From Hyphomonas adhaerens MHS-3 (GTDB lineage Bacteria > Pseudomonadota > Alphaproteobacteria > Caulobacterales > Hyphomonadaceae), in NCBI RefSeq assembly GCF_000685235.1, contig NZ_ARYH01000001.1, forward strand, positions 62,001 to 126,000: a stretch of DNA of 64,000 bases, in the 5' to 3' direction. Positions 16,351-57,391 of this stretch are shown in pieces; positions within the stretch are counted from its first letter, which is position 1; the number at the start of each line of letters is the position of its first letter. Position numbers and translations under genes: made by a program. Below the pieces are notes generated by a model, which was not told the origin of the DNA, ran no database searches, and worked only from the letters and a program-made list of their open reading frames with translations.

Positions 16351-16821
16351 CTATGCACCCTTTTCCACACGAACCGGCAGGATGCGGGACTTCTTCACAA
16401 CCCCGTAGGCAAAACTGGTCTCGATGGAGGCGATTCCCGGCAATTTCTGGATCGTGTGGCGCACGAGCTGTTCGTAATCGTCGAGGCTGCGGGCGACGAT
16501 TCGCAGCTCGTAATCGGCGCCGCCGGTCATCAGGTAACAATCGAGAATCGCTTCGGTTTCCGCGATTTTCTTCTCAAAGGCCTGCACGTTTTCCTGCGAA
16601 TGGTTGGCGAGCCGGATGCGGACGAGGCAGGTGATGGGATAACCGCAAGCTTTCTGGTCGACGAGGGCGGTGTAGCCCTGGATCACGCCGGCGGCCTCAA
16701 GGTTGCGCACGCGGCGTAGGCAGGGTGAGGGCGAGAGCCCCACTTCCTCGGCCAGTTCGAGGTTGGTGAGGCGTCCATCGCGCTGCAGGGCGCGGATAAT
16801 CCTGGCATCTATGGCATCCAT
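16351..16821 (-). CDS. Lrp/AsnC-family transcriptional regulator
   Basis: 156 residues with an N-terminal helix-turn-helix (DARIIRALQRDGRLTNLELA, LSPSPCLRRVRNLEAAGVI) and a C-terminal RAM/AsnC ligand domain (ILDCYLMTGGADYELRIVA). The start is ATG 16819-16821; a longer in-frame version would run through the palindrome and is rejected. It is divergent from a methionine gamma-lyase gene, the arrangement of mdeR/mdeA in Pseudomonas putida, so it probably activates that gene in response to methionine or a related amino acid. The palindrome at 16833-16849 is the likely operator. Confidence 0.93.
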   Translation of the reverse strand: MDAIDARIIRALQRDGRLTNLELAEEVGLSPSPCLRRVRNLEAAGVIQGYTALVDQKACGYPITCLVRIRLANHSQENVQAFEKKIAETEAILDCYLMTGGADYELRIVARSLDDYEQLVRHTIQKLPGIASIETSFAYGVVKKSRILPVRVEKGA

Positions 16822-16832
16822 ATACACCAGTA

Positions 16833-16849
16833 TTGGCATATTATGCCAA
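16833..16849. promoter_or_regulatory. Palindromic operator candidate for the Lrp-type regulator
   Basis: TTGGCATA T TATGCCAA is a perfect inverted repeat with 8-bp arms around one central base. It lies 11 nt upstream of the regulator ATG and about 80 nt upstream of the methionine gamma-lyase ATG, in the only shared intergenic space. AT-rich imperfect palindromes of about 15-17 bp are typical Lrp/AsnC sites. Confidence 0.6.
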
Positions 16850-16929
16850 TTTACAAGCAATATACGACGCAGTTCGGCACCTTTCGCCCACATTCCCATG
16901 GTAGAATCTCCTCAAATACGGAGACCCCC

Positions 16930-18132
16930 ATGGCATTCGATGCAACCCGCCCGCTCGGCCCCGCCACCCGCGCCATTCATCATGGCTATGACCCGGCTAA
17001 AAACGACTATGCGCTGACCCCGCCGGTGCATCTGACGTCTACCTTTGCCTTCCCGGATGCGCAGACCGGCGGCGCCCTGTTTGCAGGCGAGGCCGAGGGC
17101 CACATCTACTCCCGCATCTCGAACCCCACCGTCGCCCTGCTGGAAGACCGCGTCGCCAGCCTCGAAGGCGCCGAAGCGGGCCTCGCCACCGCCAGCGGCA
17201 TGGGGGCGATCAGTTCCCTCATGTGGACGCTGCTGAAACCGGGCGATGAGGTTATCACCGACCAGACGCTGTATGGCTGCACCTTCGCCTTCATGCGCGA
17301 CGGCCTCTCCCGCTTCGGCGTGAAGATCACCCATGTCGACCTGCGCGACCCGGCGAACCTCTCCGCCGCCCTCTCTGACAAGACGCGCGTCGTGTATTTC
17401 GAAACCCCGGCCAATCCGAACATGCGCCTGGTCGACATTCGGGAAACGGCCCGCATCGCGCATGAAGCCGGCGCGCTTGTGGTGGTGGACAACACCTATG
17501 CCTCTCCCCTGCTGACGCGGCCGATTTCGCTCGGCGCGGACTTCGTCGTCCATTCGGCGACCAAATATCTCGGCGGCCATGGAGACCTTGTGGCCGGCAT
17601 GGTGCTCGGCCGGGCGGAGGCCCTCAAGGAGGTCCGCATGTTCGGCGTGAAGGACATGACCGGCTCCGTCATGGCGCCTTTCAATGCCATGCTGGTGATG
17701 CGTGGACTGAAGACCCTGCAGCTGCGCATGGCGCGCCATTGCGAGAGCGGCCAGAAAGTGGCCGAATGGCTGGAAGCCCAGCCCGGCGTGGACACCGTCC
17801 ACTATCCGGGCCTTGCCAGCCACCCGCAGCATGAGCTGGCAAAGCGCCAGATGGACGGCTTTGGCGGGATGATCGCGTTCGAATTGTCCGGCGGTTATGA
17901 AGCGGGTATCGAGATGATGAACCGGCTGCAGCTGATCCGCCGCGCGGTCAGCCTCGGCGATGCCGAGACCCTGATCCAGCATCCGGCCAGCATGACCCAC
18001 TCGACCTACACCGAAGAAGAACGCCTCGAACATGGCATCAGTAATGGCCTGATCCGCCTCTCCGTCGGATTGGAGGACGTCGACGACATCCTGGCGGATC
18101 TTGCAGACGCGCTGGGAAGTAATGCAGGCTAG
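16930..18132 (+). CDS. megL: Methionine gamma-lyase
   Basis: 400-residue PLP enzyme of the Cys/Met metabolism family. The Schiff-base lysine is K212 in HSATKYLGGHGD. Residues 115-118 read YGCT, so the cysteine that distinguishes methionine gamma-lyase (C116 in P. putida) from cystathionine gamma-synthase/lyase is present at 117. It should convert methionine to methanethiol, 2-oxobutyrate and ammonia. The start is ATG 16930, giving MAFDATRPLGPATRAIHHGY; a longer open frame upstream crosses the regulatory palindrome. An Lrp regulator is divergent. Its stop overlaps that of the convergent EF-hand gene in the tetramer CTAG. Confidence 0.92.
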   Translation: MAFDATRPLGPATRAIHHGYDPAKNDYALTPPVHLTSTFAFPDAQTGGALFAGEAEGHIYSRISNPTVALLEDRVASLEGAEAGLATASGMGAISSLMWTLLKPGDEVITDQTLYGCTFAFMRDGLSRFGVKITHVDLRDPANLSAALSDKTRVVYFETPANPNMRLVDIRETARIAHEAGALVVVDNTYASPLLTRPISLGADFVVHSATKYLGGHGDLVAGMVLGRAEALKEVRMFGVKDMTGSVMAPFNAMLVMRGLKTLQLRMARHCESGQKVAEWLEAQPGVDTVHYPGLASHPQHELAKRQMDGFGGMIAFELSGGYEAGIEMMNRLQLIRRAVSLGDAETLIQHPASMTHSTYTEEERLEHGISNGLIRLSVGLEDVDDILADLADALGSNAG

Positions 18133-18974
18133 TCGGCAATCCCCCGCCAATACTCCCGCCAGTTCACAACGCCATTTCCATCGCGATCATAAACTGCGAA
18201 GCGCGCACGAATAAGCTCCGCCTGCATCGGCGTCGGCGCGTCCGCTTTACCGTGCAGCCAAGCCTTCCTGGTTTGAGCCTCGGCGGCTGGTATTTCCTTG
18301 TTCTTCGGTCCCCGCCCCCAATAGCCGCCTACATGGTCCCGGCCACGGCCGACTGGCGGATTGAGCGCTTCCTCCAGCCTGATCGCACGATCTCCATCCG
18401 CATCGATCTCATCAAACAAAGTGAGAAAGAGCGTTTCTTGTGACGCTTGGTATTCTGCCTTCGTCGCAATTCCATCTTCATTCGTGTCGTACCTGGCAAT
18501 GAAATGGCGCGCGGAGGCCCGGGCACTTTCCTCAGATGACGCCCTGACCCTCTCATAGGTCTCTTGCGGGAGATCCCGTCTGACCTCTTCCAGAAACATT
18601 GTCCTGGATTCAGAATTCAGAAAATCTTCCGGCCCCAGCACACCGTCGCCATTCGTGTCCTTGTGGGCAAAGTACTCAGCCCATCTCGGTTCCGGTTCCG
18701 CTTTTGACGGTAATGCCGCGACGCTCAAAGCCCCGGCGATCAGCGCCGCGAGCCCACCGCCGCGCACCCACCATGGCGTGCGGCGGACAGCTTCGATGGG
18801 GCGGGCGATCATGGGCTGGTGAAATCGCGCCACATATTCCTCGATCAGGCGGCGGATGACGCCGGAAGCGGACTCCCCCCGCTGTTCGCAGGTTTCGTGA
18901 AACGCCTGTTTGGTCTCGGGCGCGAGGCGCACCTCGATCTTGTCGGTCTTTTTCGATCTGCGCTGGTCCGCCAT
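18129..18974 (-). CDS. Ribbon-helix-helix / transmembrane / EF-hand fusion protein
   Basis: 281 residues with an unusual order. Residues 10-50 (KIEVRLAPETKQAF, SASGVIRRLIEEYV) look like an Arc/CopG-type ribbon-helix-helix DNA-binding domain. A basic segment with WWVR leads into one transmembrane helix at about 71-88. The rest holds four EF-hand-like loops starting near D106 (DTNGDGVLGPED), D163 (DTNEDGIATKAE), D191 (DADGDRAIRLEE) and D263 (DRDGNGVVNWRE). The positive-inside rule puts the RHH domain in the cytoplasm and the EF-hands in the periplasm. It could be a membrane-tethered, calcium-sensing regulator; alternatively the RHH part may only dimerise. The start is ATG 18972-18974. Confidence 0.8.
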   Translation of the reverse strand: MADQRRSKKTDKIEVRLAPETKQAFHETCEQRGESASGVIRRLIEEYVARFHQPMIARPIEAVRRTPWWVRGGGLAALIAGALSVAALPSKAEPEPRWAEYFAHKDTNGDGVLGPEDFLNSESRTMFLEEVRRDLPQETYERVRASSEESARASARHFIARYDTNEDGIATKAEYQASQETLFLTLFDEIDADGDRAIRLEEALNPPVGRGRDHVGGYWGRGPKNKEIPAAEAQTRKAWLHGKADAPTPMQAELIRARFAVYDRDGNGVVNWREYWRGIAD

Positions 18975-19092
18975 CGCTGCCTCCGTTTGCTTGCCCTCAT
19001 CACAAGCGAAACGGGTGCGGCCTGCCAACCCCCGATTGTGTCAGGCAGGCTGGATTTCGTGTCATGACATGCGGGAAACAGCGCCAGCCGCC

Positions 19093-20535
19093 CTACTCCA
19101 CCGGGCTTTCTTCATCCAGCAAGTCGGGCTCTTTGCTGCTGGCGCGTTCGGCGGCGACTTTTTCGTCGATAGTATTGTCGGCGGCGACGTCTGACGCTTC
19201 GCTTGTATCGACTGGCTTTTTCGGCGGCGCGGCTGGAGGGGACGGCGTACTGACGGTCGCACTGCCTGTGGAACCGCCTTTCAGCGCGTCCTCGATCTTG
19301 CTGTCGAAGCGCAGCTTGTAGATCGGCTCCGGCAGCGTGAAGCCGCCCTCTTCCAGGGCATCCTTGGTGGCGGCGATGGCGAGCCCCCGGCCCTTGGCGA
19401 AATTGGTCTCGGTCTGGTTCACCCAGCCCATGAAGCGCAGCACGATATTGGAGTCGCCGACCGTCTGGATGAAAGCTTCCGGCTCCGGATCCTTCAGCAC
19501 GAACGGCATCGCCTTCAGCCGGTCGAGACCGAGCTGCATCGCCGCCACAGGGTCGTCGGCCGCATCGACACCGAGGTCGAACTCAAAGCGGCGCTCGGGA
19601 TTGCGCGTATAGTTCAGGATCACCGACTTGAAGACGATCGTGTTGGGAATGCGCAAATGGTTGCCATCCAGCGTCATCAGGATCGTGGAGCGCGAGGTGA
19701 GGCGGATGACCTTGCCCTCGTGATCGTCGATCACGACATGCTCGTTCGCGCGGAAAGGCTGGCGCACACTGAGCATGATGGAGGAGATATAATTCTCCAG
19801 CGTATCACGCACCGAAAAGCCGATGGCGAGGCCGATCACGCCTGCCCCGCCCAGAATGGTGCCCATCAGCGTGGTGGCGCCGAGGACGTTCATCGCCATT
19901 ACCAGCGCCACGAGAAGCGCCACGATGCGGAATGCGCCGGAGACCAGTTCGACCAGGAACGGATTGGGCAGGATCAGGCGCCAGAAGCCGCGCCAGGAAG
20001 CAATCAGGTGCCCCAGCAGGGCAATGACCAGGAACACGGCCAGCGATACGCCATAGAGCGGCAGGGCGCGGTAGAGCTTTTGCAGGCGGCTGGACGAATC
20101 CCCGAACAGGCTGCCGGTGCTGTCTTCCACGGCCAGACGGCGCTCGATCTGGTTCTCGACCGTAACGACGCCGTTGACGCGCAGCGCCAGCTCTTCGGCC
20201 CGCGCATCGGCGGCGCTGCTGGACACATCCCCGCCAAGCGTCACCACGCCATGGTTCACTTCGACGGTCACCCGGCGAAGGGAGTCGATCTCGGCGAAAA
20301 TGTCCGTGATGCGCGTCCGGATGTCGGCGTCGCTGGCCTGTGGCGGCGGCGTCTGGATCGCGGGGGTCGGATCGGTTGGTTCGTCCGGCCCCGGCAATTG
20401 CGCCAGCGCGTGCGGCGCAGACAGAGCGAAGCACAAGAGAAACAGCCCGGCGCGCAGCCAGCGCGCCGCTGCGGCGGGGAACTCAGTCGGGTTTGTTTTC
20501 GGGCTCACCGAAGCACAACCCGCGAGACCGGACAA
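19093..20535 (-). CDS. MscS-family mechanosensitive channel with N-terminal BON domain
   Basis: 480 residues. A signal peptide (LRAGLFLLCFALSAPHALA) is followed at about 70-140 by a BON domain (VEVNHGVVTLGGDVSSSAADA), predicted periplasmic, then three to four transmembrane helices. The pore helix and beta domain follow: GTILGGAGVIGLAIGFSVRD, RANEHVVIDDHEGKVIRL and RIPNTIVFKSVILNYTRNP. The C-terminal tail is Ser/Pro rich. The annotated start is TTG at 20535; a GTG at 20508 is an alternative, and both keep the signal peptide. The channel should release solutes on hypo-osmotic shock; the BON domain may link it to the outer membrane or peptidoglycan. Confidence 0.88.
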   Translation of the reverse strand: MSGLAGCASVSPKTNPTEFPAAAARWLRAGLFLLCFALSAPHALAQLPGPDEPTDPTPAIQTPPPQASDADIRTRITDIFAEIDSLRRVTVEVNHGVVTLGGDVSSSAADARAEELALRVNGVVTVENQIERRLAVEDSTGSLFGDSSSRLQKLYRALPLYGVSLAVFLVIALLGHLIASWRGFWRLILPNPFLVELVSGAFRIVALLVALVMAMNVLGATTLMGTILGGAGVIGLAIGFSVRDTLENYISSIMLSVRQPFRANEHVVIDDHEGKVIRLTSRSTILMTLDGNHLRIPNTIVFKSVILNYTRNPERRFEFDLGVDAADDPVAAMQLGLDRLKAMPFVLKDPEPEAFIQTVGDSNIVLRFMGWVNQTETNFAKGRGLAIAATKDALEEGGFTLPEPIYKLRFDSKIEDALKGGSTGSATVSTPSPPAAPPKKPVDTSEASDVAADNTIDEKVAAERASSKEPDLLDEESPVE

Positions 20536-56760: not shown

Positions 56761-57391
56761 CCGAAGGTTAACACTCGGTCAACGTGGTTTGTCCGCAAAC
56801 CTTCACATTCGCCGTGGAAATCTGGTTAACAAAGTCTAACCGGAAGCCTGAAAACTCAAGTGCCACGGGCCTTCTGGCCTGTGGAAATCACAGGTGAAAG
56901 CAGACCGTCGGACCGGGTGGCCGCCGAAAAATCGGGCATGCCCTGTTCAGCGGAAAAGCGGGAAAACCGGCCTGCTCACTATCCCTAGTAGGTGCCTGCT
57001 GGCGAACACACGCAGAAAACGATTCCTGAACACGCCGATTCCCTGATGAGGCGAGCCGGATGAGTCGCCCTGCCCCGCGGCAGGCGGGTCGGAAAGCCAT
57101 GTTCATTTATTGGATATGGAGAAGGAAGAAGGAGACAGGCGAGCGACCCGGGCGGAAAACTCGTTGGGGCTGCTCCGTTCCCGGCCTGACCCGGTTGGCG
57201 AGCGGCCCGTCCGCCACCTGCCTCCCGGGGGCTATATGCGCAGAGGCCGCCCCGGACGCAAGAGCCAGAGTGAGTCCATGCCATGCGCATACCGGACCAG
57301 GCCGGACGATAACGGACCATCAAATGCTGTTCTCCGCATCAGCCACATGCTAGCCATGACCTTTCTTGTTTAAAAATGGGAGGGTTTCTCA
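56761..57391. other. Intergenic gap between nrdA and the S9 peptidase
   Basis: About 630 nt. Besides the nrdA promoter end it contains a hairpin CCTGCC/GGCAGG at 57069-57084. No tRNA, riboswitch or convincing open frame was found. Confidence 0.5.

Follow-up and report, generated by a model that had tools for sequence, protein, structure and literature searches.

An autogenous regulator may be built into an envelope calcium-binding protein: a ribbon-helix-helix domain, a hydrophobic segment and four EF-hands in one chain of Hyphomonas adhaerens

What does a DNA-binding domain do on a protein whose other end is predicted to bind calcium outside the cytoplasm, and which DNA would it recognize? 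This question is raised by one gene in the 64,000-nucleotide stretch of the Hyphomonas adhaerens MHS-3 genome analysed here (the window). The best explanation of the whole, to which we give a probability of about 0.6, is that a calcium-binding protein of the envelope carries a built-in autogenous regulator. The reading frame (18129-18974, minus strand) is open throughout its 281 amino acids, from the ATG at 18972-18974 to the TAG stop at 18129-18131. The first-pass annotation had described a ribbon-helix-helix (RHH) domain, one membrane segment and four EF-hands, and was right in their order, side and coordinates. A DNA-binding domain, a transmembrane (TM) segment and a periplasmic domain are thus laid out in one chain, judged by sequence.

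18129..18974, minus strand: coding sequence of 281 amino acids with RHH domain, linker, hydrophobic segment and four EF-hands (ORF call, Pfam, model)
18980..18984, minus strand: Shine-Dalgarno element GGAGG before the main ATG, shared by L003 and L004
18825..18953, minus strand: RHH domain, residues 8-50 (RHH_9 at 8-48, model helices, conserved residues)
18759..18824, minus strand: juxtamembrane basic linker, residues 51-72, with 19 of 22 residues identical to Hyphomonas jannaschiana
18708..18758, minus strand: single hydrophobic segment, about residues 73-89 (hydropathy, model)

The N-terminus is a real RHH domain. The family RHH_9 (PF19839) gave 23.4 bits on the whole protein, exactly its gathering score, and 26.3 bits on residues 1-72 alone, and RHH_1 gave 17.5 and 20.1 bits, both below its cut-off of 20.5. 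A profile of the N-terminal part from 15 relatives matched solved RHH chains in the PDB, namely DinJ (3.5e-5), ParG (6e-4) and ORF56 (1.2e-3). In the AlphaFold model built from an alignment (38 sequences, mean pLDDT 88.9), helices at residues 19-31 and 36-51 follow a presumed strand at 11-17, with block means of 90-97 over residues 11-50. This model has high confidence at residues 11-50 and 91-281 but reaches just 59-69 for residues 51-90, the linker and hydrophobic segment; it is a model of a single chain, and the RHH strand pairs only in the dimer. A model built on the one sequence alone scored poorly (38.5). Profiles and structure prediction together bear out the fold first proposed from the letters alone. 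The lists of structure matches were filled by the EF-hand part (EF-hand proteins, calmodulin-like), so the RHH part was barely probed there. Among 105 family sequences R16 and K22 are invariant, and K8, K9, S37 and R41 are present in at least 90%. Alternate residues on the strand are what RHH proteins use to read DNA. The presumed base-reading strand residues K12, E14 and R16 have the same i, i+2, i+4 spacing as Lys18, Val20 and Arg22, the strand residues by which AmrZ is described to read bases (PMC3325190).

A mis-called start, with a plain secreted protein beginning at Met55, is ruled out here, because the RHH end is conserved (46 of 50 residues, 92%, identical between H. adhaerens and H. 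jannaschiana), GGAGG precedes the ATG at 18974 and Met55 lacks a Shine-Dalgarno element. As to homologues, the domain order is kept in L003/L032, L004/L033 and L005, where the L003 protein equals the L032 protein (H. jannaschiana) and the L004 protein equals the L033 protein (the metagenome-assembled genome BRH_c29). Homologues with a plain signal anchor at the N-terminus had been named as evidence against the RHH idea, and the outcome was mixed: the RHH domain is kept in the three syntenic Hyphomonas genes, but six loci that match the TM/EF-hand part alone encode EF-hand proteins with a plain signal peptide and no RHH. The operator described below is absent at these six loci within the stretch examined, and we read them as general EF-hand relatives elsewhere, not as orthologues. 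We also rejected a type II antitoxin (DinJ/RelB) of a toxin pair, as no partner gene adjoins it in the three syntenic Hyphomonas loci, where it is flanked by a convergent gene for a Cys/Met PLP enzyme and by a BON-MscS gene.

The neighbourhood had been thought to give no target gene. On the contrary, a target can be predicted in the gene's own promoter, as two boxes.

19060..19069, no strand assigned: perfect palindrome TGTCATGACA, operator box 1, predicted site of the protein's own RHH domain
19039..19047, minus strand: TGCCTGACA, degenerate operator box 2, lying about two turns of the helix away from box 1

Of the 105 family genes, 73 have TGTCNNGACA in the 400 nt upstream, against 1/105 for the reversed control; the ORF bodies contain it 0 times and the 400-nt downstream stretches four times. 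After clustering at 70% RHH identity it is present in 42/67 clusters; the perfect site is missing in 32/105 genes. In 40 of 72 genes, the start of box 1 is followed at a distance of exactly 23 nt by that of a second GTCNNGAC with at most one mismatch (nine of these copies are exact), so that equivalent bases are set about two helical turns apart. Comparison by eye revealed a 15-nt element, TGTCATGACACGAAA, around box 1 that is common to L001, L003, L004 and L005, and L005, from another genus, keeps it though its upstream region is otherwise little alike. The flanks of the palindrome are conserved too, with the consensus TGTCCGGACACGATTTTTCTGGCGTCCGGAC. When 150 genomes were scanned with the DNA alone for exact CGTGTCCGGACACG, eight places were found, six of which have an RHH-TM gene 86-194 nt downstream. 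Scanning six genomes for TGTCCGGACAC gave 14 distinct places, six of them before an RHH gene including the newly found L147; four of the eight misses fall in G039, whose own two RHH genes are of the AT type (see below). L147, from position 1645 onwards (plus strand), is a divergent RHH-TM gene found through the DNA site alone, with an RHH profile match of about 1e-8. Outside the order, three of the seven class-level matches have a hydrophobic segment, each of them with TGTCCGGACA upstream. A sigma-70 scan detected no promoter near the operator. TGTCATGACA occurs at three places in the H. adhaerens genome, once here and twice not before an RHH gene, so that the predicted regulon would be essentially the gene itself. 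Taken as a comparative prediction, the most likely target of the RHH domain is the promoter of its own gene.

The centre of the palindrome varies with residue 12 of the protein. Of 134 ORFs, 130 were used for this count (L128, L147, L195 and the truncated L218 ORF were left out), and 14 of 43 new RHH matches had been set aside beforehand for having no hydrophobic segment. The centre is AT in 18/18 proteins with Lys12 and in 1/89 others, the lone exception having Arg12; when only perfect ten-mers are counted, the figures are 11/11 and 0/77. Proteins with S12/D14 have CT, CC or AG in 8/8 cases. By eye, two of the omitted ORFs read as K with TGTCATGACA (L195) and S with TGTCCGGACA (L128). An earlier reading of the strand residues had dropped 4/105 ORFs whose strand was missed by the pattern. 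On a tree with residue 12 masked, the best topology has six changes of Lys12 (18 rows), and an earlier tree had four (one row left out). A single origin of the Lys12/AT pair was not rejected (AU p 0.494 with 12 rows, 0.341 with 18 rows), and the well-supported branches hold one Lys12/AT contrast only. Therefore, we take the pairing as a strong association, not as proof by many independent events, and the events behind it may be few. Co-occurrence with the operator and the pairing of residue and centre give strong, if indirect, comparative support for sequence-specific binding, in line with the first-pass proposal of a DNA-binding regulator. The genus of the window also has a second RHH-TM type (L096, L098, L103, L116) with a non-EF periplasmic part, Lys12 and TGTCATGACA.

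The family comprises 105 distinct ORFs in which RHH and a hydrophobic segment are followed by a periplasmic part that varies (EF-hands, TonB_C-like or other); they were selected by an RHH match, and the presence of RHH is thus by construction. Pfam (E 0.01) assigns EF-hand_1 to 65/105 and TonB_C to 14/105, and other members have periplasmic parts without an assignment. The same-family search gave matches in 48/105 genomes, the N-terminal profile reached 153/398 genomes and 32/59 genera of the order Caulobacterales, and a class-wide draw matched 9/385 genomes, two of the nine in the window's own order. In its own genome the gene is single copy. Some short members of group f2 stop after one EF-hand, and if a pair of EF-hands is needed, a lone one per chain would pair within the dimer. 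Tandem RHH-TM genes were seen at L022, L066, L016, L082 and L119, the first two pairing an EF-hand type with a TonB_C-like type behind it.

Four EF-hand loops follow the hydrophobic segment of the window protein.

18624..18659, minus strand: EF-hand loop 1, residues 106-117 (Pfam, loop reading)
18453..18488, minus strand: EF-hand loop 2, residues 163-174 (Pfam, loop reading)
18369..18404, minus strand: EF-hand loop 3, residues 191-202, with Arg, not Gly, at position 6
18153..18188, minus strand: EF-hand loop 4, residues 263-274 (Pfam, loop reading)

Several EF-hand families scored well above their Pfam cut-offs (PF00036, 3.9e-11), and all four 12-residue loops have, by eye, D/N at positions 1, 3 and 5 and D/E at position 12. 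Calcium binding by the four loops is predicted from these ligand residues. The regulatory end of the gene is conserved and the periplasmic end is fast-changing: compared with H. jannaschiana, the periplasmic part has 52/189 identical residues (about 28%), and the DNA identity is 0.85-0.98 over 18801-19040, 0.77 in the next block, 0.27-0.48 over 18141-18740 and again 0.95 at 18021-18080. The syntenic neighbours in H. jannaschiana and BRH_c29 stand in the same order and are 79-98% identical. We considered whether the EF-hand part was swapped in from a plain secreted EF-hand protein, but its best match is still the H. jannaschiana orthologue (27%), and fast divergence is therefore the simpler reading. 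Such divergence argues against a finely tuned allosteric sensor, and no gain of calcium control could be read from the sequence.

18696..18710, minus strand: PSKA/E, signal-peptidase-I-like site of the LPSxA type (sequence pattern; cleavage putative)

Positive charge is heavier on the N-terminal side of the hydrophobic segment in 105/105 family ORFs, and from this N-in bias the long form would insert with its N-terminus inside and its EF-hands outside. A hydrophobic 15-mer (mean hydropathy at least 1.6) follows the RHH domain in 103/105 ORFs. A site of the form [AGSTV]xA is present in 101/105, against 83% in scrambled sequences, and a stricter signal-peptidase pattern in 85/105, against 45%. 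The segment may be an anchor or a cleavable signal peptide, and in most relatives it could act as an ordinary signal peptide when translation begins at an internal start. The earlier description as membrane-anchored is therefore uncertain, and the periplasmic part may be released; because LPSKA fits signal peptidase I, the chain may be cut or may stay whole.

In many relatives a second start seems to lie inside the gene. In 90/105 ORFs a Met opens the hydrophobic segment or stands a little ahead of it, and the 15/105 without such a Met include the short f2 members. A Shine-Dalgarno tetramer 8-15 nt upstream accompanies 71/90 chosen Mets (the best Met being taken in the 29/90 proteins with several) versus 23/279 control Mets further downstream. 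Counted otherwise, the figures are 65/90 for the Met nearest the segment, 72/121 for all candidate Mets and 42/55 for 70% RHH clusters. The internal element peaks sharply at -13 to -10. The preceding pentapeptides differ across genes (58 kinds) and the element occurs in all three codon phases, so that what is conserved appears to be the nucleotide sequence and not one peptide motif. From the Met bearing the Shine-Dalgarno element to the AxA the median distance is 29 residues (n=73), which is the normal length of a signal peptide. Against a null of synonymous codons the mean energy is -5.98 versus -4.07, and individually only 3/90 genes are below p 0.05; the case for an internal start thus depends on how these Mets differ from control Mets and on the 58 pentapeptides, not on codon choice. 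Many relatives would then make two proteins, the second being RHH-free and secreted, and gene models with a single product would miss this predicted protein in most members.

18810..18812, minus strand: internal Met55, at the position of the relatives' proposed start; no Shine-Dalgarno, E -1.5 and synonymous null -1.5

The clade of the window lacks this signal: the Mets of L001, L003 and L004 have no Shine-Dalgarno element and L005 has no Met. Since the internal start is without this element, the long form is probably the main or only product in this clade.

Fold, site and pairing are read from the sequences themselves; repression, anchoring or cleavage, and calcium control are the steps that we infer. 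In the autogenous reading, RHH dimers would repress their own gene by binding TGTCATGACA in its promoter, and they would also occupy the second box, about 22 bp off, hence probably as two dimers. The EF-hands would be located in the periplasm, and the state of this part (calcium-loaded or not, exported or not) would alter the amount of free RHH and set the gene's own level. Calcium binding may act on the dimer from across the membrane, or the act of export may take the repressor off the DNA. In most relatives, the internal start would yield the second, RHH-free secreted form. Weighing against the autogenous reading are the genes that lack a perfect site, the TGTCCGGACAC and TGTCATGACA places that precede no RHH gene, the degenerate box 2 and the LPSxA site, which suits a cleaved signal peptide. 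A fuller version, which we hold only tentatively, is a one-gene feedback device: nested in-frame starts would give two products, a precursor that binds DNA and a secreted protein that lacks RHH, the RHH form would repress until the cargo is exported, folded or calcium-loaded, RHH and operator would be kept while the cargo is hypervariable or exchanged, and the window gene would be a derived case with the long tethered form only. If this is true, DNA binding reports the state of an envelope cargo.

Sensing at the membrane is not needed if autoregulation is coupled to export, that is, if the gene encodes a cleaved signal peptide with RHH on its n-region, the precursor or an RHH stub represses, and the mature protein is a periplasmic calcium binder. 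We think this rather unlikely but worth weighing: the LPSxA-type sites (both counts above), the 29-residue median from Met to AxA, the plain signal-peptide EF-hand proteins in the same genus and the varied periplasmic cargo are all consistent with it. However, the linker is conserved nearly like the RHH domain (19/22), beyond the need of an idle n-region, the chance rate of the AxA pattern is high, and short one-EF-hand relatives without the internal Met (L083, L102, L121) make sense as dimeric long forms.

It is improbable that the palindrome is bound by another factor, such as an ECF sigma factor or a separate repressor, while the RHH domain does something else. The conserved flanks TGTCCGGACACGATTTTTCTGGCGTCCGGAC could hold promoter elements and sites exist without an RHH gene, but the palindrome centre tracks an RHH strand residue, each genome searched has few such sites, most of those in the DNA-only scan (6/8) go with RHH-TM genes, and a CopG/Arc-type dimer on a palindrome needs no extra factor. 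Finally, the protein might be a calcium-binding envelope protein and no regulator, its N-terminus being only a signal anchor or a cytoplasmic tail, as the bare cut-off score of RHH_9 on the whole protein would suggest; the alignment-based model, the PDB profile matches, the invariance of R16 and K22 in 105 sequences and the operator make this very improbable.

MetJ and Arc are RHH regulators, and together with AmrZ, DinJ and ParG they share with the window protein the same fold, small palindromic or repeated sites and autoregulation (here predicted); the difference is that they are soluble, and the window protein adds a membrane segment and a periplasmic domain. ToxR and CadC use a winged helix-turn-helix, whereas the window protein has RHH. 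In layout the ToxR/CadC type is the nearest, since transmembrane transcription regulators are described as a cytoplasmic DNA-binding domain, a single hydrophobic segment and a periplasmic domain in one chain (PMC10269533), the same three parts as here. The words ribbon, RHH and CopG are absent from the main text of that paper, and its Table S1, with more than 100 DNA-binding domains, may hold an RHH entry. As an autogenous RHH repressor that shifts between DNA and membrane, PutA would be the nearest precedent: it carries an N-terminal RHH on a larger polypeptide, represses its own regulon and switches between the two (PMC5293562). The likeness lies in the N-terminal RHH on a larger chain; autogenous control of the window gene is a prediction from the operator in its own promoter, by comparison only. 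In contrast, PutA is a cytoplasmic or peripheral flavoenzyme without a transmembrane segment or EF-hands, and Pfam finds no PRODH, P5CDH or other enzyme domain in the window protein. The CaBP of the related bacterium Caulobacter vibrioides (CCNA_02838), an EF-hand protein of 133 amino acids linked to sigV, is likewise exported via an N-terminal signal peptide, in its case a plain Sec type, but differs in that no RHH is described for it in the text available to us (PMC13171946). Our literature search found no description that combines RHH with transmembrane, membrane-anchored, EF-hand or ToxR-type regulation, and for TGTCCGGACA no bacterial regulator topic by title among the matches listed; as far as this search reached, the RHH-TM family is undescribed.

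If our reading is true, RHH joins the DNA-binding folds of transmembrane or secretion-coupled regulation, and the family offers a ready operator with a natural specificity switch, residue 12 versus palindrome centre. How a cell gauges an envelope calcium-binding protein that carries its own DNA-binding domain would become testable in ordinary laboratory bacteria.

Some further observations were made on the window. The upstream neighbour (19093-20535, minus strand) has a signal-like N-terminus, a BON domain (3.2e-11) and an MscS-type channel domain (MS_channel_2nd, 8.1e-14), and it is conserved in two other Hyphomonas loci. On the other side, an Lrp/AsnC-type regulator (16351-16899, minus strand) is divergent from the Cys/Met PLP enzyme ORF (16843-18132, plus strand); their called starts overlap and the enzyme may start further in, and the 3' end of the enzyme ORF overlaps the end of the RHH gene by 4 nt. 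Far from these genes, 57128-57225 (minus strand) matches the bacterial small SRP RNA (RF00169, 51.9 bits).
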